A stretch of DNA of 64,000 nucleotides from Lunularia cruciata. Taxonomy: Eukaryota > Streptophyta > Marchantiopsida > Lunulariales > Lunulariaceae. The notes beneath the pieces were generated by a model that saw only the letters and a program-made list of their open reading frames with translations, was not told where the DNA came from and made no database searches. Within the stretch, counting starts at the first letter, position 1. The number at the start of each line of letters is the position of its first letter. Position numbers and translations under genes: made by a program. Positions 4,007 through 64,000 of this stretch are shown one piece after another. The stretch spans positions 51,165,473 through 51,229,472 of the forward strand of contig OX419758.1 of NCBI GenBank assembly GCA_948567375.1, written 5' to 3'.

Positions 4007-5000
4007 ATTCTACTTTAGATGTAACAATGGTCCATAAGACATGGTGTCCTTTTGGAGGATACAAGATAGCTACCCATGCTGTTATCAATGATATATTGTT
4101 TTCCATGGCACAAGAGAGTGGAAACCTTGCATGGGAGGAGCATTGGTATGCTTTGCAAATGACATGAGTCCAGGTAGACACCTCTGTCAAGGAGTGCACA
4201 AGGGCATATAGAAATTAAGGGATATCACTATTACTTTCGTATTTCATCAAATCTTTTAGACAACCCACCCATTACTTTATAGAGAGCATTGGCTAGTGCA
4301 ATACAATTCAAAGGAGAGCAATAAGATGATGCTTCTTTGGATACTTCGATTGTTTTAGACCATGTGACTTGCATTGTCGTGCATATATACATTGTGACAT
4401 ACCATACATTACTATCAACATCATACATTGTAGAAACACAACTAATATAAAAGTCATACATAAACTCTAAAGTACCACAATAATAAATTCACTCTTCCAC
4501 TCAACAATCTATTAATAAATAGAAATTAATTATAGTCAAACCACACCCACACTAGTTAAGAGACTCCAATCGATGTTTGCTAGCCTCTATCCACTTTAGC
4601 CAAGAACTCAAATGTTCAATATCAAAAAAGTGAACTCTTTGGAATTACACTTTGAAAGTAGACCCATCTATTCAACCTAGGTCTCCAACCCTAACAGCAT
4701 CATCGATGGTCCATCTAATGGTGCAATTGGTGCAAGTGACCATGTCAGAAGTTACTCTATTATAAAATTTGGCCGTCATTAAATAGTTCATGAACAACTA
4801 CCAGAATAATTATAATCACAAACACTATCACTCTAGTGTGCCCGACCAAACTAGCTTCATCGCTATAGAGCTCATGACAACATAACTATGATATCTTAAG
4901 GTGCTATAGGGCAGATTCCTCCTACCACTATAGGGACTTAGCCCCGTTTTACCGTTTTGTCTTTTCCTTGTATGGGTTTGGTGGAGTTTCTCACGCGGTC
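4007..5000 (+). pseudogene. Family L LINE 3' fragment (endonuclease region and tail)
   Basis: 4007-4374 aligns with 23355-23960 of the longer L copy (the region after the zinc-binding C-x-C cluster, including the MAQESG and MAGAIHRRA-like stretches), with an internal deletion of a little over 200 bp near 4175. After an inserted LTR, 4883-5000 continues with the L 3' tail (gatatctta, gggacttagcccc). Stops and frameshifts throughout. No intact protein is possible. Confidence 0.8.
4375..4882 (-). repeat. Solo LTR of family C type inserted in LINE fragment
   Basis: 508 bp with TG...CA ends (TGTCGTGCAT at the left, GACAACA at the right), nearly the reverse complement of 2329-2871 over most of its length. 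LINE sequence that is continuous in the 24 kb copy (cttgcat then agctcggatatc) is split exactly here. A clear target duplication is not visible. It includes the inverted copy of the 100-bp terminal segment at 4375-4484. Confidence 0.75.
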
Positions 5001-51305: not shown

Positions 51306-53154
51306 ATGGTATTAGAGTAGGTAATTCAATCCAAGAGAGTGACACCTCTTGGAAGAACATGTGCTATTAAGGCTAAGTTATTTTGAGGAGAGGAACCGTA
51401 GTGAAATAGTTAAGAATATTTCAGAGAGAGGATGGGATGGAAGCTCTTGGAGGACAATTTCTTGCACCCTACCCCACTTTTTATTCTTGAATTTATTCCA
51501 CATCAAGATTATGTATATCCAGTGAGAGCAAGTGAGAGTATATTTCATTTACCATTTTGGAATAGAGTTCATGGATATAGTGATGAATTCACCAAACCTA
51601 TTGATTCTACTTATAGTGATCTATAATAAAGAGTGGGATTTGACAATCTACATTTTGTTATGATGAATCTAATAAAACAAATCCTCTCCTTTTCAACACT
51701 CAAGTAGAAATTTTTTATGTGGTTAGACCAAAAGTGATGTTTAGGGATTTTGTAGTCCACAATTTTGGTGAGGAATACTATCAACAAGTGATAGTCTCTA
51801 AAGTCCCAATGGTAATGCAAATAGCTTGTGCTTCCTCTCGAGTGATCATGTTAACTCTCTATTGAAATAGGAAGTACCATTTGAGCATTGCCATATGTAG
51901 GAATCATGGAACCATAGTTACAAGATTTGATGCAAAGAATACAAGGGATGTTGAACAAGTTTGCAAGATCAAGATGACCATGGAGGCATTGCAAAGTCAA
52001 GTATGTACCTTCAAAAATGATTAGGCAATGCAAGAAGAGAAATTGTCTCAAAACCTAGTAACAATGGTTGAAGTACCTAGAGAGTCACTCATACCAATGA
52101 CACCGACTCTGGTCAACAATGAAGCCACATTGTTGCTATGGATAAAGAAGATATGCCTTACAAGGTACAATGTTCTATGGGAGTAGTGGAGAATTGGATT
52201 TCAAGAATGAATCAATACTTTTGATTATTCATGATGCAGATCATCAATCATTCAACATGTGTGTTTTAATATGGTTACTTGATTGATGAAGCTCTCACAT
52301 GGTATGATGCTTGGGAACAAGCAATGTTGGCAAAAAGAAGAGAGGTCACTTGAACGACAATGCAAGAAGGGTTGCAAAAGAACTTCCAATCTGCAGATGC
52401 CATGCAAATAGCCCAAACCTTACTATGGGAGATGAAGTAGAAGAACAATGCACAAGAGTATGTGGAAGCATTTCTTGATTTACAAGTTGCAATAACCAAC
52501 ATGAGTTCAATAGAAGCTCTGGATTATTTCAAAAAAGGGTTAAAAGAGCAAATTTACCAAGAGGTAATGGTATAAATTCCTCACACTACTTTTGAAGCCA
52601 TTGCTTACACTCAAAGAATAGCAAGGCCACTTGGAGGAGGTGAAAGGGTAGTCCAGACTCAACAGTATTGGTCTAAAACACATCATTTTGGTGAACCAAT
52701 TCCCATGGAATTGGGCAACATTTGGTTTCAAGACCAAGGAGCACGACCATTCCAAGGAGAATGGGGATGAGAAGAAGAAAGGAAAGATAAAATCCCACCA
52801 CAAGAAGAGATTCAAGTAGAAAAATATTATTATTACAATTGTGGCTGAGTTGGGTACATAGCCATCAAACTGCTATACATGTCTCTGTAGAGGCCCTCAA
52901 CTTCCATACAAGCAATACTTGAACAACATGGGAGAGACAAATTGAAGAGTAGGATGCAAAAATCACATCAAAAAATAAAGATCACCAATAAATGTACTTG
53001 TGATCTTTATTGGCTCAATGGAGAAGCAAAAAAGCAAGGGGAAGAAGATGACAAGTGTGCAAAGATCAAGAAAACAAACTCACAATTGATTGTCATGAAT
53101 GGAGTCTTAGAAGGCAATCAAGTGAGAGTATTGGTAAACCCTAGAGCAATAGAG
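51306..53154 (+). pseudogene. A5 ORF0, gag and protease start
   Basis: ORF0 51430-51865: second module QVEIFYVVRPKVMFRDFVVH and FGEEYYQQV, ending LTLY and stop, just ahead of gag near 51907. Gag runs with many stops to about 52930 (EALQSQV, ATLLLWIKKI, and the knuckle region near 52830-52880). 52942-53154 is open: WLNGEAKKQG, then [21 protein letters not shown], where the protease motif Asp-Pro-Gly has become Asn-Pro-Arg. Confidence 0.82.
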
Positions 53155-54480
53155 CAACTCCACCATTAGAGCCACATAACATATAACTCAAGCATGCACA
53201 TACAAGTACCAAGCTTGGGTCCATAGTACCATCAATTTTTAGGAGGTGGCATGACATACAATTGCACACATGATCCCTCCAAACAACACCATCACGTCCT
53301 TCCAACACAAGGACTCTAGATGGCAAAACCTCACGCACTCTCAAGATAGTGAGGCCTGTCAAAACATCAAGTGTTGTTGGTGTTGTTTGATGTAGATTTA
53401 CATAATCACTTGGATGAAATCCATGGATCGAGTGTTTATAACCTCCTCCTTGAATAGTAACATAATGTAAGGTATCCCTATGTTGAGTTATTGTCAATTT
53501 CTCAAAGTCCATCAACATCACTTTCCAAAAGATCTCTACCTGTTGAGAACATGTGCTCACCCATACATCTAGATCATCCAAGTCCAAGACTATAGTAGCA
53601 TCTTGACAAATGGTTGTAGATAAATATGGATCTTGTCCATAGAGTAGGAAGTAAGGAGAGAAGGATGCTAAGAAGGCTTGCCGGCTGAACCAATAGCCCA
53701 TGGCCAACCAAGGTAACTGGAGATGCCAATCTCCCAAGTGGCTTCTCTGCAAACCATACTTTTGCAATCCTCTCTTCATTATCTGAACCACTCTCTTTGC
53801 TAAACCATCTACCTCAGGGTGATCTCGGGAGGTAGTACAATGATCAATCAAAGCCTTGTCACACAAGACCTAAAACTCTCTCAAGAACTCTGTACCCTGA
53901 TAAGTCAAAACCTCAACTGGTGCACCAAAATGACTAAGAACTCAATCTAGGAATGAATAAGCGGTCCCTTCACTAGACTTGTCAGCAAATGGCACCAACT
54001 CAATCCACTTGGAGAAGTGCTCCACCATCACCAAAGCATACCAATGATGTCTCACAATCAATGGTAAGGTCTAGCAAAGTCCAAACTCCAACAGTAACCC
54101 AATTCCATGATAAGTAATAGGTGTAATTGTGGCATATGAGCATTGAATGATGCTCTAACTCGTTCACAAACCACACATCTAGCAACAAATTGCTTTACAT
54201 TGATCTGCATACCGCACTACCAATAATGACTCTAGAGTAAGCTATAGGTATGATTTACTCCAAAATATCCTAGCTCCTCATGATCATGACAAACCAACTA
54301 TAGTCTCTGAGATGGAAGTGGTACTACTCTCACTCTACCATCCTCCATACACGCAAATGGTGTTTGCACTCCAATCTGAACCGTCTGGCTTGTTGAAGAA
54401 CACGGTCTCTCTCCTAAGCCCCAACTGTGCCACCCATAACACCTATGCAGAGATATTCCATCACTAAGATATCATCATGA
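53155..54480 (-). pseudogene. C integrase
   Basis: 53141-53866 is open: DHCTTSRDHPEVDGLAKRVVQ (third catalytic residue Lys instead of Glu in G-L-A-E-R), LPWLAMGYWFSRQAFLASFSPYFLLYGQDP, then the C-terminal module WRDHVCNCMSCHLLK. Upstream, 53867-54060 reads HWYALVMVEHFSKWIELVPFADK, and LTYQGTEF where the second catalytic Asp (T-D-Q-G) is Tyr. Two of three catalytic residues are therefore lost. Confidence 0.82.
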
Positions 54481-55080
54481 ATGTCCCGTTAAATTGTACC
54501 AATATCTTCACTCTTTGGATTTATGACCTCAGTAACTCCTCTTGTATGCATTGAGAGAGATACCACCAAAGTCTTAGAATATATACACAAAAAGGCAGAT
54601 GCATGCCAACCTGGCACCATCTCCTCATCTAAGTCACCATGTCAACATGCTCTGGTCGGATCTTGTTGGTGGGGACATGGGTTTCTACTCAACCACCCAT
54701 CTGCATCACTATTCACTGCTCCAGGTCTGTGAATAACCGTGAAATCATACTCCTATAAAATCAAAGCCCATCATGCAAGCTTCTTTGAAAGCTTGTCGGA
54801 CTCCATCAACCACTTCAATTGTTGATGATTAGTGATGAGTGTAAAGGGGTTACCAAATAGGTAACATCGGAAATGTGCTACTACCTAAATTGCTACCAAG
54901 CACTCTCTCATATGAACTATAGTTTACCTCCACTGAATTGTTGGAGCAACTAGCATGGGCTACCATAAACTCCTTCCTCTCATCATCATGTTGAGTGAGC
55001 ACTGCTCCAAGCTCCAACAAACTTCAATTAGTGTGATCTTGAAATGGCCATCCTCTGATAGATCTCCTCAAAATAAAAGT
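54481..55080 (-). pseudogene. C RNase H
   Basis: Minus strand near 54780-55010: GAVLTQHDDERKEFMVAHASCSNNS, VNYSSYER, and across a frameshift LITDHQQLKWLMESDK-like sequence (gttgatgattagtgatgag, with a stop). The phrases are those of plant Ty3/gypsy RNase H. Several frameshifts. Confidence 0.75.
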
Positions 55081-55935
55081 AGATGTCAACCTCTCCTTGA
55101 GCTCTACAAAAGCTCTCTCTTGCTCATCTCCCCAACTCTTATGTAAGTTTGGTCAACTTTATCAAGACCTTAGCAATGACACTAAATCCTCTAACATAAT
55201 GGCAATAGAAGTTTGCCAACCCAAGGAATGCTTGCACTCTACTCACATCTATAGGTTGAAGAATGAAATAGTCTCCACCTTGGTTTGCTGAACACCAAGT
55301 CCTCTAGGATAGATAGTGTGACCCAAATACTCAACCTGCTCATGGAAGAACCTACACTTCCCAGGATGTAATTTGAGTCCATGAGATCTCAACCTCTCAA
55401 ACACCTCCAAAAACTATCTCTCATGCTCCTCCACCATAGTGCTATAGACCAAGCAATGTCATCAATATAACACCAAGCAAAATCTAATCCAACTAGGATC
55501 ATATCCATGACCCTCTAGAACTCAACAAGAGAGTTCTTTAACCCAAATAGTAAGAATCTCCACTGATATAACACATCCTTACCATGAGGATCACTAGCCC
55601 AAAATTTTATCTTGGACTTATCCTCCTCCTTGATCGGCAATTGATGATATCTTACTCAAAGATCCAAAGTATTGAAGACCTTTGCATGCCCAATCACATC
55701 AAAGATCTCCTTCGGTGTAGGTATGGCATACCAATCAGCCCTAGTCTATTGGTTGATAGGACGGTAATCTCCACACATCCACCTTTCTATGTAGTTGCCA
55801 TGCATATCCTTCTTGGCTGGCATCATTATAGCTAATGCATATTCTCCATGTGAAATCTCTACCAAACCAACCTCAAAAAGGTCACTACTTCAACTCTGAA
55901 TCAATGTTTGCTCCATATCAATATATCGATAGAGA
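55081..55935 (-). pseudogene. C reverse transcriptase
   Basis: From 55935 leftwards: VEISHGEYALAIMMPAKKD, RWMCGDYRPINQ (stop) TRADWYAIP, VFNTLDL (stop) VRYHQLPI, WRFLLFGLKNSLVEF, then the intact catalytic box CYIDDIAWS near 55455-55475. After a frameshift: MVEEHER, LRSHGLKLHPGKCRFFHEQVEYLGHTIYP and RVQAFLGLANFYCHYVR (55150-55430). All core RT motifs are recognisable, with stops at Gln or Arg positions. Confidence 0.87.
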
Positions 55936-56444
55936 TGTTGGAAAATAGATGTATCGTTAGTCAGCTCAATTTGTATACCAGGTCCCTTCAGAGCCCCCAA
56001 ATCCTTCACATTGAAGGTAAAAAAACTTGTGTAGCTCCTCAAGAACCTCCAAACTCTTTGTCTTTCCTCTCCTATAAGCTTGGGTCCAAGATCTAGCTCC
56101 CAAGTATCCTCTATAATTGTTGTAGGAGTGGAAGATGTATTGATTGGCTGCTACACTGGACCCTTGGGAGCAATAGTCTCATGCTCCCAAGCACTAGAGG
56201 TCCCAACCTCAATGTGAAAAAATCCCTCTACTCTGGCTGCAAGCTCCACATGTCCTCTAGCAACATCCCAAGTAGACCATGGGTGTATCCAACGAGCCCA
56301 TACTCACCTAGATGGACTCCAAGTAGACCACTCTCTCTAGTAGCTACTGGCTGTATCCCAAGAATACCATGTCCACTCGGTCCATCGCTCTCTAGCATGT
56401 GCCTAAAGTGTCTCATAGGCACAAGGCTCACAATCTAGGTCAAA

Positions 56445-57380
56445 TAGTTTAGGTCCATAGCCTTGCCTAACACTTGATGCTTGGATGCCTCTAATACTAT
56501 TGGAATAATGGTAATAATAGTGCAAAAACCCATTGCTCACTCTCTCTCATTGGCGTTGGGCTCCACCAACTGCTATTAACTTTTAGTCCCAAACAAGTCC
56601 AAGACCTCCCTCTTGAAAAGCATGGGAGCTTAGGAAACTCATAAGTGTGGGAAAAGTAACTCTAGGCTATCCAACTAGGTTCACTATTGTCATAGGTGAC
56701 TTATCAGCCACTACCACCATCTGAGACTGATGCCCAACATCCAAGATTTCATCAACAATGATGTGGTCTAGTTGTTCAATCCCATCATAAGCGTGCTATA
56801 AAACCTCTCTAGATAAGAGGTTTGTCCACCAAAGACAAATATGATGAGCCCGTGATCCCACTATGGCTGCATCTAAAAATACAATAGGTTTCATCCAAGA
56901 ATGAACTTGATGTGTACTTACCACCACTTTGGTGCAAGAATCATCCATCAAAGGAATGTTCTCCAAAAGGTAAGCTGGAGAAATGATTTGATGGACTTGG
57001 AGATGTGGTAGTATCCATAACATCTCCCCAAATACACCCAAATAGGGATCCTAAAGACCTAGACCTTGGCCAACACATGTATGTCCCTAACATGGCTATC
57101 TAAAAATCACCAAATGAATAGGCCCATGTTGCTTGAGATCATGCGCATGTAGCAAAGAAATGTCTGCTAGTAGGGCCTTTTGGTAACCCTTAACTGCTAA
57201 CATTGGTAATAACTTGAGATACCAATAGGCCAAGTGTATCACATGATGGAAAGAGACTCACCTAGCAGTCTCATCTCTCTCCACATACAAGTACCTTTCT
57301 ACTCATATACCTGCCTATAGTACCCCAGCTAGTCTAGTGCTCATCCCACCAAACAACTCCAATAGACATACTCCTTCTAT
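56445..57380 (-). pseudogene. Cytosine-5 DNA methyltransferase domain inside element C
   Basis: About 310 residues, canonical (unpermuted) motif order. Motif I GVCLLELFGGMSTRLAGVL (57347-57380), the AdoMet-binding loop. Acidic motif region VERYLYVERDETAR. Motif IV around the catalytic Pro-Cys (57090-57095), then GHTCVGQGLGL. Motif VI AYLLENIP (56955 region). Motif VIII DAAIVGSRAHHICLWWTNL (56817-56875). Near the end TFPTLMSFLSSHAF, then in a shifted frame AMGFCTIITI and motif X VLGKAMDLNYL (56447-56475). Motif VIII with A-H-x-I/R and W-W/F-W-x-N-L resembles DNMT3-type enzymes more than DNMT1/CMT. Such enzymes add methyl groups to DNA cytosines using S-adenosylmethionine. At least eight stops and one frameshift make this copy inactive. 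The catalytic Cys codon itself is kept, flanked by two stops. Confidence 0.82.
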
Positions 57381-58600
57381 TGGATAGTGCCAAGCAATGA
57401 GTGTGATATCTAGGGATGTCAAGGTAACCAACTCTGGAGACTTATCCTCACACTGGTCTCTTGGTGGTACAAAGGCTCCACTCCAAGCCTGTTGTACAAC
57501 CTGATCTGCAAGTTGCTGCAATGCCTCCTCTAAACTCCACAAAGGAACATTCAAGGTAGATGGAACAATCTCACTTGTACTCCAAATCCAAGTGATCTCC
57601 TCTGGTATTGGAGTATCCTGTGCATGGGCATTCCCCTCCAATAAATCACCAGGCCAAGTAACAAAACCTCTGAAAGCTGAAACTGAAGCCGCCATAGTCT
57701 TGGATTGTAGTGAGCCAAGATTGCCACTATTGAAGCATATTGGTAGGCGACATACTCATTCCTCACTTGACTGCTAACATGGTCTATAGGAGGTTGTCTC
57801 CTCCCAATAGTCTATACTAAAACCCATGGGGTATAGCATTGCTCCACCGACTAACACATTACATGACTTAACTATTGTCCCAATAGCTTGAGCTCTCACC
57901 ACCAAGCTATCAATCTGATGACCAGGCTAAATCTGAACAACTAGCTCTCTACGTGTGATGTATTGTATCGAACCACCTCCTAGAGATATCTGGATATAAA
58001 ATGGACATTGCTCCACATTGGTCTTCTGTAACCCTAGACCAACAACTATAGCCTTCCCCAACATAAGCGGCTACATACCGAAGTCTAATAAGACTCTTTA
58101 TGGTGTTTAGATTTTCCCTAAAGGTCCCACCAAACAGAAAATCCCCCTCTTGTTATCCAATAGGACAACACCAAGTGTGAACCACACTCTCTCAAAGGCC
58201 GGTCTAACTGGCAACTCCTCCAATCTAGCCGATGTTGCTTGCCATAAACCACTAGTTGTTGAGCAAATCTCATACTCCTCAACCAAGTCAACTCCACTAT
58301 CAACCACCTCTTCTCTAGTAGTAGGAACCACATTATCCCTACTCTCACAAAGCATGGCAGCCAATTTGAACATTGGGGCTAGGTCAACTCCCAATATACA
58401 CATGTCACTAGCTGAAAATAAAAGATAGCGCATAATCAGCTGAGCCGCTCCCAACATCATGCTAGACTCAGTCTGTGTAGTAGCAAGTAGTTGATTAGTA
58501 GGTAGTCCATCATGCATCCTATCACCACCTACCACACTTGCATTAAGACGTCTAAGAGCCATAGATGACATCTGTAGAGCCTCAAAGAGCATGAAAGATT
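57381..58600 (-). pseudogene. C protease region and connection to methyltransferase
   Basis: Near 58060-58095 the minus strand reads VLLDFGM (stop) PLMLGKAIVVGLGL, a retropepsin active site with Asp-Phe-Gly where Asp-Ser-Gly is expected. Further on: VRAQAIGTIVKSCNVLVGGAMLYPMGFSIDYWEETTSYRP, then GFVTWPGDLLEGNAHAQDTPI (57315-57695 frame), which is continuous with methyltransferase motif I. 58107-58592 is a 161-codon open frame with no clear domain lying between gag and protease. Confidence 0.7.
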
Positions 58601-60280
58601 AGGGAAGTTTGACTTGTCTCCCAACCTCTCCTCTCTATGGGTCCAACTCTATTGATGCTCCATTGGGCTCTGGAGCATGTATTGCATTCCTAGTCACTGC
58701 TATAGATGCATCAACTTATGATGCTCTGCACATGAAGTCCAAAGCATCTCTATCACTAGCATATGAGGTGGAAGCCTTAGCACCCAAATCTGATCTCCTC
58801 TAAGCAATGGCCATACTAGCCAATCTCTACTCCAATTGCTCAACCCGAGTAGCCATAGTTGTATCAAAAGTAAGGGCAAGTATTGCACTCCTACTAGGTG
58901 TAGATCCTCTACCACCACATCAACCACCTTGTCCTCCATCAATTGTAGCTCCTCTATTACTTGCCACTGTAGCCCTACCACTCCATAACTCTAGGTGTAG
59001 GTCAAAGCACCGATCACTAGAGTGACCATATCTACAACAATGCTCACACGGTCTCTATGTTGGCTATGATGCACTAGGGGTATCAAGTCCACTACCCTAA
59101 GTACACTCTCTCCTATGGTGAGGTCCACCACAAGTCCAACAAGCAACACCACCACTCATTGGCTACTGTAGACCCAAAAATGAAGGTAAGGATCTAGCTC
59201 CACTAGGCCTTACATCGCTCCATAGGATCTAGGTTGTCCATCCTGTCCACAAAAACCAATTAGGCGTGATGCACTCTACTGTACTCTAGAAGAAGTCGTA
59301 GTTGTGGATGAGGTCTCCCTATCAAATCCACATGTCACCACTCTCTCCTCCACCATGTTGAGCTCAATACGCTCAGCCAAACCAAAGACCACCGCCAAAG
59401 TAGGCAAAGTAGGCTATAACAATGTAGCGTCATGAACTCTACGTCGCAACTCCTTGTCTAGTATCCCATACCAAAATTGGACTGCTTGGGCCTCAGTAAC
59501 TTCTTGAGTGAAACTAATCAGCCGTTTCATGCAAGTGTATGCCTTGCGTAGGCTCTCTCCCGCCTTTTTTTAGAACTCTTACAAGCTCTTCAGCTTGTCG
59601 GTCTGCACTCCCTGGTAGTTCTACCTCAAACACCAAAAGAACTCCACCATGGGGTTAAACCCCGGTACTACAACACTTCTTGTAGTTGTACCTCCACTCG
59701 TAGTAGCACTATCTCTAACTAGTGCACCTCCACTAGTTCCACCAACACTACTTGAGCAAAACTCGTGGGTACAGTCAATCTACCCTTGGCAACCAAGTCT
59801 AAAGTGATAGAGATATAGTTCGGAGACCAATACTGTCTCCAAAACTCAATCTCCTCCAAGTGAGCTCTCCTGAACTCATGGTAGTCATCCATTGGTGGAC
59901 CCTCAAAATTCTGAAACAAGCCCTTCCATGCCATGAAGGTTATGAACAAAGTTGGGTTCCGCATCTACTATAGATCACACTAACTATCAAACTCCTAGAT
60001 GAAGTCATCCAACTCAATGTTACCTATCATATTAGAGTAATGCCTAGGGCCTTTGGAGGCCTCATAAATCTCACCCATGTCCCAAAACAATGGTGCGGAC
60101 ACACCAAATGCATTGTCAACTGAATAAGCTTATTTGTCAAACTCCAACTCAGAGTCAATCTCCTCTCTCAATGGGACTTGAGATACAAGCTGATGTTGAG
60201 TGCCACTCCAAGTAGACCCACTGTATACTGTAGTGCTATCTCCTGTAGAATCCCCAAAGAACTTCATCTTGACAACATAA
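58601..60280 (-). pseudogene. C gag with two zinc knuckles
   Basis: Probable start MKFFGDSTGDS near 60270. 59719-59964 contains FEGPPMDDYHEFRRAHLEEIEFW. Two zinc knuckles follow: CEHCCRYGHSSDRC (C-x2-C-x4-H-x4-C) near 59010-59055 and CWTCGGPHHRREC (C-x2-C-x3-H-x4-C) near 59100-59140. Stops interrupt every part. Upstream at 60275-60370 is a GT-rich stretch on the minus strand (repeated GGTTGT). Confidence 0.75.
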
Positions 60281-60724
60281 CCACAACCCACTATCCACAA
60301 CCACAACCACAACCGCAAGTACCCCACCAAGAACAAACACCACCAAGTACCAACACCAACTAAGCACCACCAAGTGCCAATACCAATAGAACATTACCCA
60401 CTAATGTAACTCTAACTGAGACAACTACACGAAGGGAAATGGCAACTTGTAACCTACCATCACAACATGCACTCTCACGATCTGTAGATCATCACTTCCT
60501 ACCTCACTAGAGAGAAACAAAGGTAGTCTGACTGGTCATCACTCTGGCCTCACCACCAACGCTCTAAATTTAGAGCAACTCACACAAACATGGTGCACAA
60601 ATAGGAAGCAAAGAATGGATGGGGTCCAATCACAAGAAATCAAATTGCCTCTCCTAGCCAAAGCTACATGTGTATAGATAAAAATGGAACAATCATTAGG
60701 ACAACAAGTGAGGGTGGATTATTT

Positions 60725-60737
60725 GGCTAGGGCACCA
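60725..60737 (-). promoter_or_regulatory. Candidate C primer binding site
   Basis: Minus strand TGGTGCCCTAGCC, three bases after the proposed LTR end. It starts with TGG as required but is not of the initiator-methionine type used by A and B, so another tRNA would prime. Confidence 0.5.
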
Positions 60738-60740
60738 ATT

Positions 60741-62017
60741 TGGGAACCAGAGATCTAGGGATCAAACCCTATTGCACACAATCTAGCAGGGTGTGTAGAT
60801 TTTGCCAAACAATGACCAAGATCTACTCTAAACTAGTTAGCCTCATGCTAACAAGCTGGCTTGCTTGCCCTTCTAGGCCTTTGTAGCCTATCATAGCCCA
60901 CAACCCTATGCCTCAAAGCTTCTAAATGCCCAAATGAGGCATTTCTTCTTTCCACTCTGAACCCTCTCCAAATCTAGCAAGACTCCTCTAAAACTTGTGA
61001 AACTCCTCAAAAACCACCAAAACTCTGATGTAAAATCTGACATGAACCCTAAAGTTAGCTGACTTTTAAATCCTTTGCTAATTCTTCACTCAAGCCAAAT
61101 TGAAAAAATGGATTTCTTCAAATAAAAAATTCACTGGGGTGAGTTCCCAACTCCACCTTCAATTTCACTTTCTGATCCTAAATCGCAACAAATTGGTCTT
61201 GCTTTCACCTCTTGAACTCAAATTCACAACTATCACTTGAAAATTGCTTCTCTTTGCTCAAAATTTGGCCAACACTTCCATACACCATTTGCCTTATAGC
61301 CAAATTTGTATCAATCAATGAGCTTCTACACACCAAGGAAAACCTGAACTCCAATCGAGCTACCAACAATCCATTGAGCTTGGAGATACCACCAACGCTC
61401 GCAGTTCTTGCATTCAATTTCCCCCTAACCTCACTTCTCTTATGTAATCAATTTGTTGACACCACTTGAATCAACTCAACTTAGATTCTTGATCTGTCAC
61501 TCTATAAACTACCAACAATTGGGCACTGATTACAATCAAGTCACACCCATTCTAGCTAAGTCTTATGTAATCAATTTGTTTATACCACTCGAATCAACTC
61601 AACTTAGATTAGAACTTGATCTGTCACTCCATAAACTACCAAAAATTGGGCACTGATTACAATCAAGTCACACCCATTCTAGCTAAGAGAATCCAGATGA
61701 CGCTCGTCGGCCTCTGTCCACCATAGCTAAAAACTCAAAGGCTCAACATTAGAGAAGTGAACTCTCTGGAGTTGCACTTTGAAAGTATACCCTTGGACTC
61801 AAGCTAGGTCTGAAACCCTAATGGTCTCATTGATAGCACACCTAATAGTGCAAATGGTGCAAAGTGATGGTGGGCCCCACCATGAAGTTAGTACCCCAAA
61901 CACAAAATCTGACCATTGAAAAGTAGTCTGGAAGTAACTACTTAGATACCTCTTACCACTATCACTGCAACTCCAATGTCTGAGCAATCAAGATGCGACA
62001 CTACAAATAGTGTGACA
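60741..62017 (-). repeat. C 5' LTR
   Basis: Proposed limits TGTCACACTATTTG (62017, minus strand) to GGTTCCCA (60741), 1277 bp. The first part (about 61480-62000) matches the C-type LTRs at 2329-2871 and 4375-4882. A 123-bp tandem duplication sits at 61439-61686 (both units contain tatgtaatcaatttgtt and end ctagctaag). The second half has no match in the window, so its inner limit rests on the TG...CA rule and on the primer-site-like sequence. Confidence 0.65.
61439..61686. repeat. 123-bp tandem duplication in C LTR
   Basis: Unit 1 61439-61560, unit 2 61562-61686. They share gggcactgattacaatcaag and tcacacccattctagctaag; unit 2 has a few extra bases (gattagaacttg). Confidence 0.9.
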
Positions 62018-64000
62018 AAGAAGAGAGAGAATTTGGTGCTTACTTGTTTGGAATTATTATAGGCAAACTCAACAATTACAAGACATTTGTCCCAATTGGT
62101 ATAGTGAACATTGACAAAGGCACAAAACATATCCTCCAAGATGCAATTTGCACATTTGGTTTTTCTACCAGTTTGAGGATGATAGGCCTTGGACAAAGCA
62201 AGCTTGGTGCCGAGTAGCTAGAAGAGCACTTACCAATTTTTTTGATGAATCAAGGATCACGATCAGAGATGAGTACACGAGGCATCTCATGATGCTTGAA
62301 GATATTGTCAAAGTAATTTTGGGCTAATGTTGGTGCCAAATGGATTTGCTTACTAAGCTTATCAACAAACACCACTATTGTTGTGTGATCTTGCTTTGTC
62401 TTGGGCAACGATGTGATGAGATCTAAGCTCACATGTTCCCATCAAGCAGATGGGATGGGTAGTGATTGAAGGAGTCCACTCACTTTCTGGTTGTTATCCT
62501 TGTTGCATTGGCAACGCTCACAAGATTGGACAAACTCTCAAATATATACCATTGTTAGTAATGGACAAACTATCGTTAAAAACTTGTCAATCCATTAAAT
62601 GTCCATACTTCTATGGTATCCTTTGGAGTTGACCAATCAAGAATGGCCTTGATTTTCTCCTTGACCATCTTGATCCTCACTAATGAGATCTTATGACCCA
62701 AGAAGAGAACTTCCTTTTGCCAAATGGTACAATTTGACTTCTTACAATAAAACTTCTATTGACGTAGTTGTCTAAGGACTTCTTGCACATGATTTGTATG
62801 TTCTATATATGTCTTGCTATAGATTAAAAACATCTAAAAACATCACCACATATTATTCCAAAAGCCTATCCAACACTTGATGCATCTGATCCATGAAGAT
62901 TACTATAGCATTAATGAGCTCAAAAGGTAGAACTCTCTATTCAAAATATCCATACCTTGTGCAAAAGGTAATCTTTTGCACATCCTCTCTATCAATGGAA
63001 ATCTATCAATATCCATTTTAGAGATCCAAGTTGGAGAAGTAGCATGCTCCACTCAATTGATCTAGCAAGTCATCAATTTGAAGCAATGGATATGCATTCT
63101 TCACTATTTGTTTATTCAAGCCATTGTAATCAATATAGAGCAAAGTATTCCATCCTTCTTTGAAACAAATAGTACCAATGCTCCTCAAGGAGATGTAATG
63201 TCATATTAAATCCTTCTCCAACAACTCCGTTGGTGTTATTCAAAGCTTGTCCAACCCCTTTGGTGAGAGCCAATAGATTGGTCTACTCATTGGAGTATTT
63301 CTTGGCAATAACTCAATCTTGAAAGGCATACCACAATCAAAGGGTAATCTCTTTGGAAGATCATTCAAAAATACATCTATAAACTCTTGAACTATTTGAT
63401 CAACCATTGCTTGATGAGACTTCTAGCCCTTGTCAAATTACCAAGCACAATCTGCCTGATCCACACCACAAAAATAAAAAAATTTCTTCCTCCAAAGCTT
63501 GCTCTATGGTTGCTTTACTAACAAACTTCCATTCTTAAAGGTCTTACTCAAAGGTGCTAGACAACCTAATTGGTAATTCTTACCTTGGTGTTGTACTTGA
63601 ATTTGTTGTTGGGACCAATCAAATTGAACCTTATGATGTTCAAGCCATAAGTGTAGAGGTGCCACTACAAACCTCACATACTCTAAATACCCCTTCCCAA
63701 TCTTGAATATAATAGGATGTGAGGTACAAAGTATAGAACTCTTTCTACCATCCGCCATCATCAATCTACTTCTTATTATTGGCTTGATAGGAAAACTCAA
63801 TTATTTTGCTAATTTCATGGACATGCAATTCTCTAAACTTCCAAAATCTTCCAAAATCAACCAAAATCCTACAACCACAATTACATATCATACCTTGCAA
63901 GTGAAGTAAACTTGCATAGATTGAGCCTTCAATCTCATTAGAACTAATCAAGTTTCTATAGGTGGTTCAAATTCTCCTACTAGGATTCTTTGTTTCCTTG
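62018..64000 (-). pseudogene. Family B fragment: integrase core, RT, protease
   Basis: Minus strand. Protease half 63504-63800 (MADGRKSSILCTSHPIIF, WLEHHKVQFDW); RT 62600-63430 in short frames, heavily mutated; integrase 62250-62432 (SLDLITSLPKTKQDHTT, VLISDRDP) and 62018-62196 (KAYHPQTGRKTKCAN, with Lys at the catalytic Glu site). RNase H and the integrase finger are missing: sequence jumps near 62560 from integrase core to RT thumb. It stops at 62018 where the C LTR begins, at the integrase position where the fragment at 2872 starts. The 5' part continues beyond the window. Confidence 0.85.

Follow-up and report, generated by a model that had tools for sequence, protein, structure and literature searches.

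A DNMT3-like cytosine methyltransferase within a Ty3/gypsy-type retrotransposon family of the liverwort Lunularia cruciata

When a cytosine methyltransferase sequence is found among the genes of a retrotransposon, does it belong to the element, and has the element kept it as a working part? The question is raised by a 64-kb stretch of the Lunularia cruciata genome (contig OX419758.1; hereafter the window, whose positions provide all coordinates), in which a first-pass annotation had placed a DNMT3-like methyltransferase (MTase) between the protease and the reverse transcriptase (RT) of a Ty3/gypsy element. Segment 56445-57380 is indeed methyltransferase, and its setting is a decayed Ty3/gypsy-type element on the minus strand (62.0-53.1 kb) with repeat A1, leader, gag, protease region, MTase, RT, RNase H and integrase. 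From identity and anatomy it is virtually certain that the window element is a Ty3/gypsy-type retrotransposon with a captured DNMT3-like C5-methyltransferase, and we regard it as rather probable, with the inferred steps included, that the family has kept this enzyme as a working part. The domain order, split repeats, stop-free MTases, retained catalytic motifs, gag-like constraint and 4-bp target duplications on which this explanation is based are demonstrated at the level of sequence.

The methyltransferase and its relatives

A tblastn search of the window with a related protein (P0001) gave one strong match, at 57428-56592 on the minus strand (56% over 279 residues, E 3e-96), in a single frame with internal stops. 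This frame contains motifs I (LLELFGG), IV (Pro-Cys-stop-Gly), VI (LENI) and VIII (GSRAHH..WWTNL); motif X (LGKAMDLN, to 56423) sits in a different frame, so an indel must lie upstream of it. All five motifs of the first-pass annotation are therefore present, motif IV being interrupted by a stop. From tblastn, motif reading and comparison with other copies, the full MTase spans about 57398-56423 (minus strand), between protease and RT, with 13 in-register stops and a frame change.

The proposed check against PF00145 failed for this copy but succeeded for its relatives: alone, the decayed window MTase matched no family in Pfam or NCBIfam, while PF00145 was above the cut-off in 12 of 17 relatives scanned and below it in five. 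PDB matches of the window MTase are weak (E 0.22-0.31), yet all nine are DNMT3A or 3C. Motifs I, IV, VI, VIII and X follow the canonical DNMT3 order, without DRM-type rearrangement, the closest solved structures by sequence are DNMT3 in 29 of 30 cases, and in a structure comparison the first 39 of the 50 entries listed are DNMT3.

To place this copy within a family, we searched the genome (565.8 Mb, 74 contigs), the copy counts being lower bounds. The MTase query yielded 69 scored copies from 17,064 first-look candidates, 51 of them stop-free in the matched part. A Pfam search yielded 123 scored places from 2,161 candidates, 108 with a profile range typical of the element family; two others that were read (L053, L054) are further family copies, giving 110 family places. 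Seven of these are shared with the 69-copy list; of the remaining 103, reading covered L053 and L054 alone. The RT query yielded 150 scored copies from 41,289 candidates, with identities to the query of 96-100% throughout, and 20 were sampled down this list, skipping some already in the MTase list. In a tree of element MTases (23 rows) the window and own-genome copies form one clade with support 100, support in the middle part being 45-55. Ty3/Gypsy bursts have been described in the L. cruciata genome (PMC9985172; this and the other cited papers were available as partial texts, to which our statements about them refer).

Protein searches found related MTases in Marchantia polymorpha (many proteins), two species of Sphagnum and Calypogeia fissa, in support of the earlier claim that the element is a land-plant-type example with a DNMT3-like domain; that claim is to be corrected in that the window copy is old and dead, its repeats are split rather than plain long terminal repeats (LTRs), and a PHD finger follows the integrase. 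These data bear on a simpler explanation, namely that an unrelated MTase fragment lies next to a retrotransposon by chance, as might be proposed from one decayed copy in the window that itself lacks a Pfam match. According to the first-pass annotation, copies lacking the domain would have spoken for such a chance neighbour; none was seen among the 20 RT-chosen copies, a sample of matches 96-100% identical to the query that does not extend to more distant relatives. The MTase occupies the expected upstream place, at the expected distance, in 20/20 (PCQG in 19/20), and PF00145 and RVT_1 co-occur within a single annotation in each of two Marchantia proteins (P0012, P0015). Chance neighbourhood is thus refuted, with a probability close to nil.

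Could the element have recently captured the DNMT3 gene of its host? The host does carry a native DNMT3 exon, but this exon and the element MTase match at just 33%, across 57 residues, versus 49-70% (Sphagnum fallax lowest, Calypogeia highest) across at least 300 residues between one own copy and the other element MTases, Marchantia included, which makes recent capture very improbable. Exons read in the same genome (L049-L052) represent a native DNMT3, two DRM-like genes and a CMT; L049, L050 and L051 match DNMT3, DRM2 and plant CMT-type PDB entries, the last being chains that we take to be CMT, and L052 is DRM-like by motif order. A native plant methylation set coexists with the element-borne enzyme. 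DNMT3 was not detected in available angiosperm data (PMC6453930), DRM is restricted to streptophytes (PMC12344493), and plant DNMT3 genes with DUF3444 have the same type of catalytic domain but are host genes, not element-borne (PMC6453930).

Among the relatives, P0030 carries its MTase between RNase H and integrase and P0031 before RT; in both, a PHD finger and then a further domain follow the integrase. The integrase family rve is above the cut-off in P0030 and P0023 and barely below it in P0031, Integrase_H2C2 is found in P0030 and P0031, and a PHD finger follows the integrase in P0024, P0030 and, below the cut-off, P0031. No chromodomain was found at E 0.01 after the integrase of relatives, and no tyrosine recombinase family at E 0.01 in the 14 relatives scanned, many of which comprise the first open reading frame (ORF1) only. 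The C-terminal domains of P0030 (about 1750-1967) and P0031 (about 1560-1771) are methyltransferase-like, with DPFAGTGT-like and SP(P/W) motifs; the P0031 piece matches N6_N4_Mtase below the cut-off (E 0.0039) and the P0030 piece matches no family, and a structural model of the former (pLDDT 54, too poor for use) gave generic methyltransferase matches. Judged by these motifs, elements of the P0030/P0031 type possibly carry two different methyltransferases. A scan of viral contigs with a 4-sequence alignment gave 366 pattern matches, with no relative among them.

Anatomy, reading frames and insertion

What kind of element carries this enzyme was read from ten copies, in two 10-kb stretches each; one of them (L013/L014), in which the 3' A repeat was not found, is excluded from repeat counts. 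The plan in nine of the ten is A1-gag-PR-MTase-UAG-RT-RH-IN-PHD-B1-A2-B2 (PR, protease; RH, RNase H; IN, integrase; PHD, PHD finger). In 9/9 copies the element lies between A repeats of about 449 bp, and B stands on both sides of A2, with B2 measuring about 106 bp in seven copies and 89 and 179 bp in two others; the window copy has the same A-coding-B-A-B plan. The elements end in TGT...ACA, and a perfect 4-bp target duplication adjoins A1 and B2 in 9/9. These duplications point to a DDE integrase, and the family thus joins the repeat plan of PAT/DIRS elements to an integrase-type insertion. Two bases, GC, separate B1 from A2 in 9/9, and the inner junction is ACA-GC-TGT in 7/9, the sequence expected of a joined circle, compared with ACA-TT-TAT in the old window copy. 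A canonical TGG primer site adjoining A1 was not recognized.

A canonical CCHC knuckle is present in 9/9 copies, the protease motif LL(D/N)(S/T)GA in 8/9 and the PHD pattern in 9/9 (one with a stop). Intact stretches show gag, protease and MTase in a common frame. The sequence UAG-CAG occurs at the same site before RT in 10/10 copies, and RT continues in the same frame after it where no indel intervenes. The expectation that gag, protease, MTase, RT, RNase H and integrase form one open frame is therefore not borne out, because this conserved in-frame UAG separates ORF1 from ORF2. In the window copy the stop is at 56151-56153 (minus strand; APKGPV-stop-QP), and the next open frame starts at 56150. 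Readthrough of the UAG would be the simplest reading of this arrangement.

In the window, the target-site duplication TCTT lies at 62018-62021 on the 5' side and, identically, at 2872-2875 on the 3' side, directly after B2. On the minus strand follow repeat A1 (61568-62017, about 449 bp, TGT start; 81% to A of another copy, with start and flank read), the leader (60387-61443; three pieces, 81-86% to the corresponding region of another copy) and gag (58815-60078), which stops and frame changes have disrupted (tblastn with the gag part of P0005 recovers it as three pieces, each in a different frame) and in which, by eye, one canonical CCHC knuckle, CEHCCRYGHSSDRC, and one near-match, CWTCGGPHHRREC, can be read. 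The protease, previously put at 57.4-58.1 kb, is a retropepsin-like region at 57780-58232 (tblastn 47%, E 2e-40), the part at 57.4-57.75 kb being linker; its motif is LLDSGAQ in relatives and LLDFGM in the window copy, and the Pfam aspartyl-protease matches of relatives P0028 and P0029 are below the cut-off. Beyond the MTase, the RT with YIDD stands where it had been predicted (55193-55904; RVT_1 4e-7, above cut-off; tblastn 3.8e-64), followed by RNase H (54711-55128; RT_RNaseH_2 3.2e-14, above cut-off, and tblastn) and the DDE integrase core with its C-terminal part, to mid PHD finger (53149-53884; rve 3.8e-7, at 30.7 bits slightly below the curated cut-off of 32.6; tblastn 4e-100).

The rest of the element is found on the plus strand at the other end of the window: the remainder of the PHD finger (1940-2042), internal repeat B1 (2214-2319, ACA end, 88-89% match), repeat A2 (2322-2765, 81% from 2325, junction read) and terminal repeat B2 (2766-2871, ACA end, 90% match). 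Rfam and tRNA scans of the window gave no match. A tandem duplication with copies of 94-97% lies inside and beside A1 (61438-61687). A solo A-B repeat of the same family is present at 4375-4879 on the minus strand (A 66%, B 82%), in the form that recombination between A1 and A2 would leave; its flanks, ATGT and ATGC, match at three of four bases. Other Gypsy-like elements were recognized by RT or RNase H matches, 25-44% to the probes and all on the minus strand, at 18934-17837, 38111-37252, 34431-34225, 31512-30569, 1254-475 and 62827-62564.

Since 2018, retrotransposons with a cytosine MTase have been on record from dinoflagellates and a single charophyte (PMC5890265), the groups that the first-pass annotation also named, and a later paper, citing that work, states that DNMT3 occurs in retrotransposons of "streptophytes and dinoflagellates" (PMC12344493). 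The charophyte element, KnitGypsy-Dnmt3 of Klebsormidium nitens, has DIRS-like repeats with Gypsy domains (PMC5890265). Compared by its published description, it shares with the Lunularia family the Gypsy domains, an unrearranged DNMT3-type MTase, the A-coding-B-A-B repeats and constraint on the MTase; in L. cruciata these take the form of Ty3/gypsy RT, RNase H and DDE integrase, a DNMT3 MTase in the coding region, and purifying selection. The MTase of KnitGypsy-Dnmt3 lies in the Pol ORF (PMC5890265), whereas that of Lunularia ends ORF1, with the UAG between MTase and RT in 10/10 copies; Marchantia P0012 and P0015 are annotated as fused. On account of the separate ORFs we class the Lunularia family as a variant of the KnitGypsy-Dnmt3 type rather than a member, although the likeness stands. 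The text consulted on KnitGypsy-Dnmt3 (PMC5890265) is silent on a PHD finger, a UAG and target duplications, so the two may or may not be alike in these respects. Among the protein-search matches, none carried a K. nitens label.

The dinoflagellate elements SymbioDIRS-Dnmt3 and SymbioLINE-Dnmt likewise join a retrotransposon to a cytosine MTase, the DIRS type with the same repeat plan, but use tyrosine recombinase or LINE machinery (PMC5890265), whereas the Lunularia element has a DDE integrase. Similarly, PAT/DIRS and Ngaro elements have split direct repeats A1-B1-A2-B2, and some carry a methyltransferase domain, but they employ a tyrosine recombinase, without integrase or target duplication (PMC4157794). 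We therefore rejected membership of the tyrosine-recombinase DIRS/PAT group, given the 4-bp duplications in 9/9 copies and rve in P0023, P0030 and P0031. Membership of the chromoviruses was also rejected, since a PHD finger, not a chromodomain, follows the integrase (PHD pattern in 9/9 own copies).

No report of such elements in land plants was found in the open PMC literature, where the name KnitGypsy-Dnmt3 has a single source; "Marchantia" does not occur in the available text of PMC5890265, nor "retrotransposon" in that of a Marchantia review (PMC9516144). Against the open texts searched, and leaving aside the supplements of PMC5890265, which may hold some of them, the following are new: occurrence in land-plant hosts, abundance of copies, 4-bp duplications combined with split repeats, a UAG downstream of the MTase, and a PHD finger.

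Fate of the window copy

Why does the window copy lie in two parts? A probe made of the integrase end and PHD finger of another copy matches to 53149 on the minus strand and resumes at 1940 on the plus strand with a 3-base overlap. Because of this continuity and of the TCTT at both far ends, this is apparently one insertion that was later split inside the PHD finger, by an inversion of about 51 kb (1940-53148) or an assembly error. With 13 in-register stops, a frame change and the apparent inversion, the copy is old and dead; its A1-A2 distance is 0.198 (K80, 446 sites), versus 0.0135-0.0367 in nine other copies.

Decay was counted at positions where 30 other copies agree, with C-to-T changes taken on either strand. 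Such changes affect 10 of 22 CG, 13 of 39 CHG and 24 of 252 CHH sites, and the reverse change 25 of 498 A/T sites; 11 of the 13 in-register stops in the MTase are of the C-to-T kind. The ratio of observed to expected CpG is 0.10 in this copy, 0.48 in the 30 copies and 0.32 in the whole window. The pattern is the mark of CG and CHG methylation followed by deamination.

A possible role for the enzyme

Has the enzyme been kept in use? The catalytic Pro-Cys is retained in 30/30 and 19/20 copies, and the preservation of key residues in many younger copies suggests that the element itself needs the enzyme. In sets chosen for high score, the dN/dS (nonsynonymous to synonymous change) of the MTase is 0.27 in nine copies, against 0.28 for gag, and 0.34 in 30 copies, less low than the values below 0.2 in the KnitGypsy-Dnmt3 paper (PMC5890265). 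An initial dN/dS of 0.92 for RT was discarded since L013/L014 carries foreign sequence after the RT start, and the calculation was redone without it (9 of 10 copies).

Several points weigh against a working enzyme. The dN/dS values come from young, score-picked copies, in which selection and neutral decay are mixed; half of the 20 less-selected copies have a stop in the 500-base piece (stop-free, 10/20); and ORF1 is open from gag to the MTase end in 3/10 copies, and ORF2 in 1/10. The structural model has low confidence (pLDDT below 50) at 259-300, the probable target-recognition region, and the CG/CHG-type decay of the dead copy could be explained by host enzymes alone. In yeast, moreover, no methylation was obtained with the KnitGypsy-Dnmt3 enzyme, a result that its authors call inconclusive, human DNMT3B having failed too; SymbioDIRS enzymes did show CG activity (PMC5890265).

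If the enzyme does work, its substrate could be the element's own cDNA, an idea that originates in PMC5890265 and that we rate just short of an even call. The MTase would form the C-terminal portion of an abundantly produced Gag-PR-MTase protein, readthrough of the UAG would yield a longer Pol form, and both would enter the particle, where the MTase would place 5-methylcytosine, probably at CG, on double-stranded cDNA before insertion by the DDE integrase. New copies would then arrive pre-marked like the silent DNA of the host and not be treated as foreign; recognition of histone H3 by the PHD finger may guide where insertion occurs.

Alternatively, the target of the MTase might be host chromatin, modified in trans at host genes or competing elements, for instance, and not the element's own cDNA. 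The pairing of a DNMT3-type enzyme with a PHD finger within one element does resemble the layout of DNMT3 itself, in which a reader, the ADD domain, accompanies the MTase; the MTase, however, adjoins Gag and protease in ORF1 before the UAG, which fits a particle protein, and the PHD finger lies at the far end of Pol, so that we consider action in trans unlikely. About as doubtful is that the MTase methylates RNA, as was proposed for SymbioLINE-Dnmt (PMC5890265), or has a noncatalytic role in the particle, binding nucleic acid, since the catalytic Pro-Cys is so widely kept and the closest relatives of solved structure, members of the DNMT3 group, act on DNA.

Returning to methylation of the element's own cDNA, we tentatively suggest that these elements form a land-plant lineage, in at least liverworts and peat mosses, that unites split repeats with a DDE integrase and 4-bp duplications, a Gag-expressed particle DNMT3 before a readthrough UAG, and a PHD finger on Pol; its enzyme would pre-mark the cDNA, and B1-GC-A2 would be a built-in copy of the circle junction that is used in replication. 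In the texts searched we found no description that links these three features.

An element that keeps an MTase under selection would reverse the usual picture of methylation as a weapon of the host. Split repeats with a DDE integrase call for a replication model beyond the LTR and DIRS schemes, and the high copy number, together with relatives in the genetically easy Marchantia, makes the purpose of element-borne MTases directly testable.
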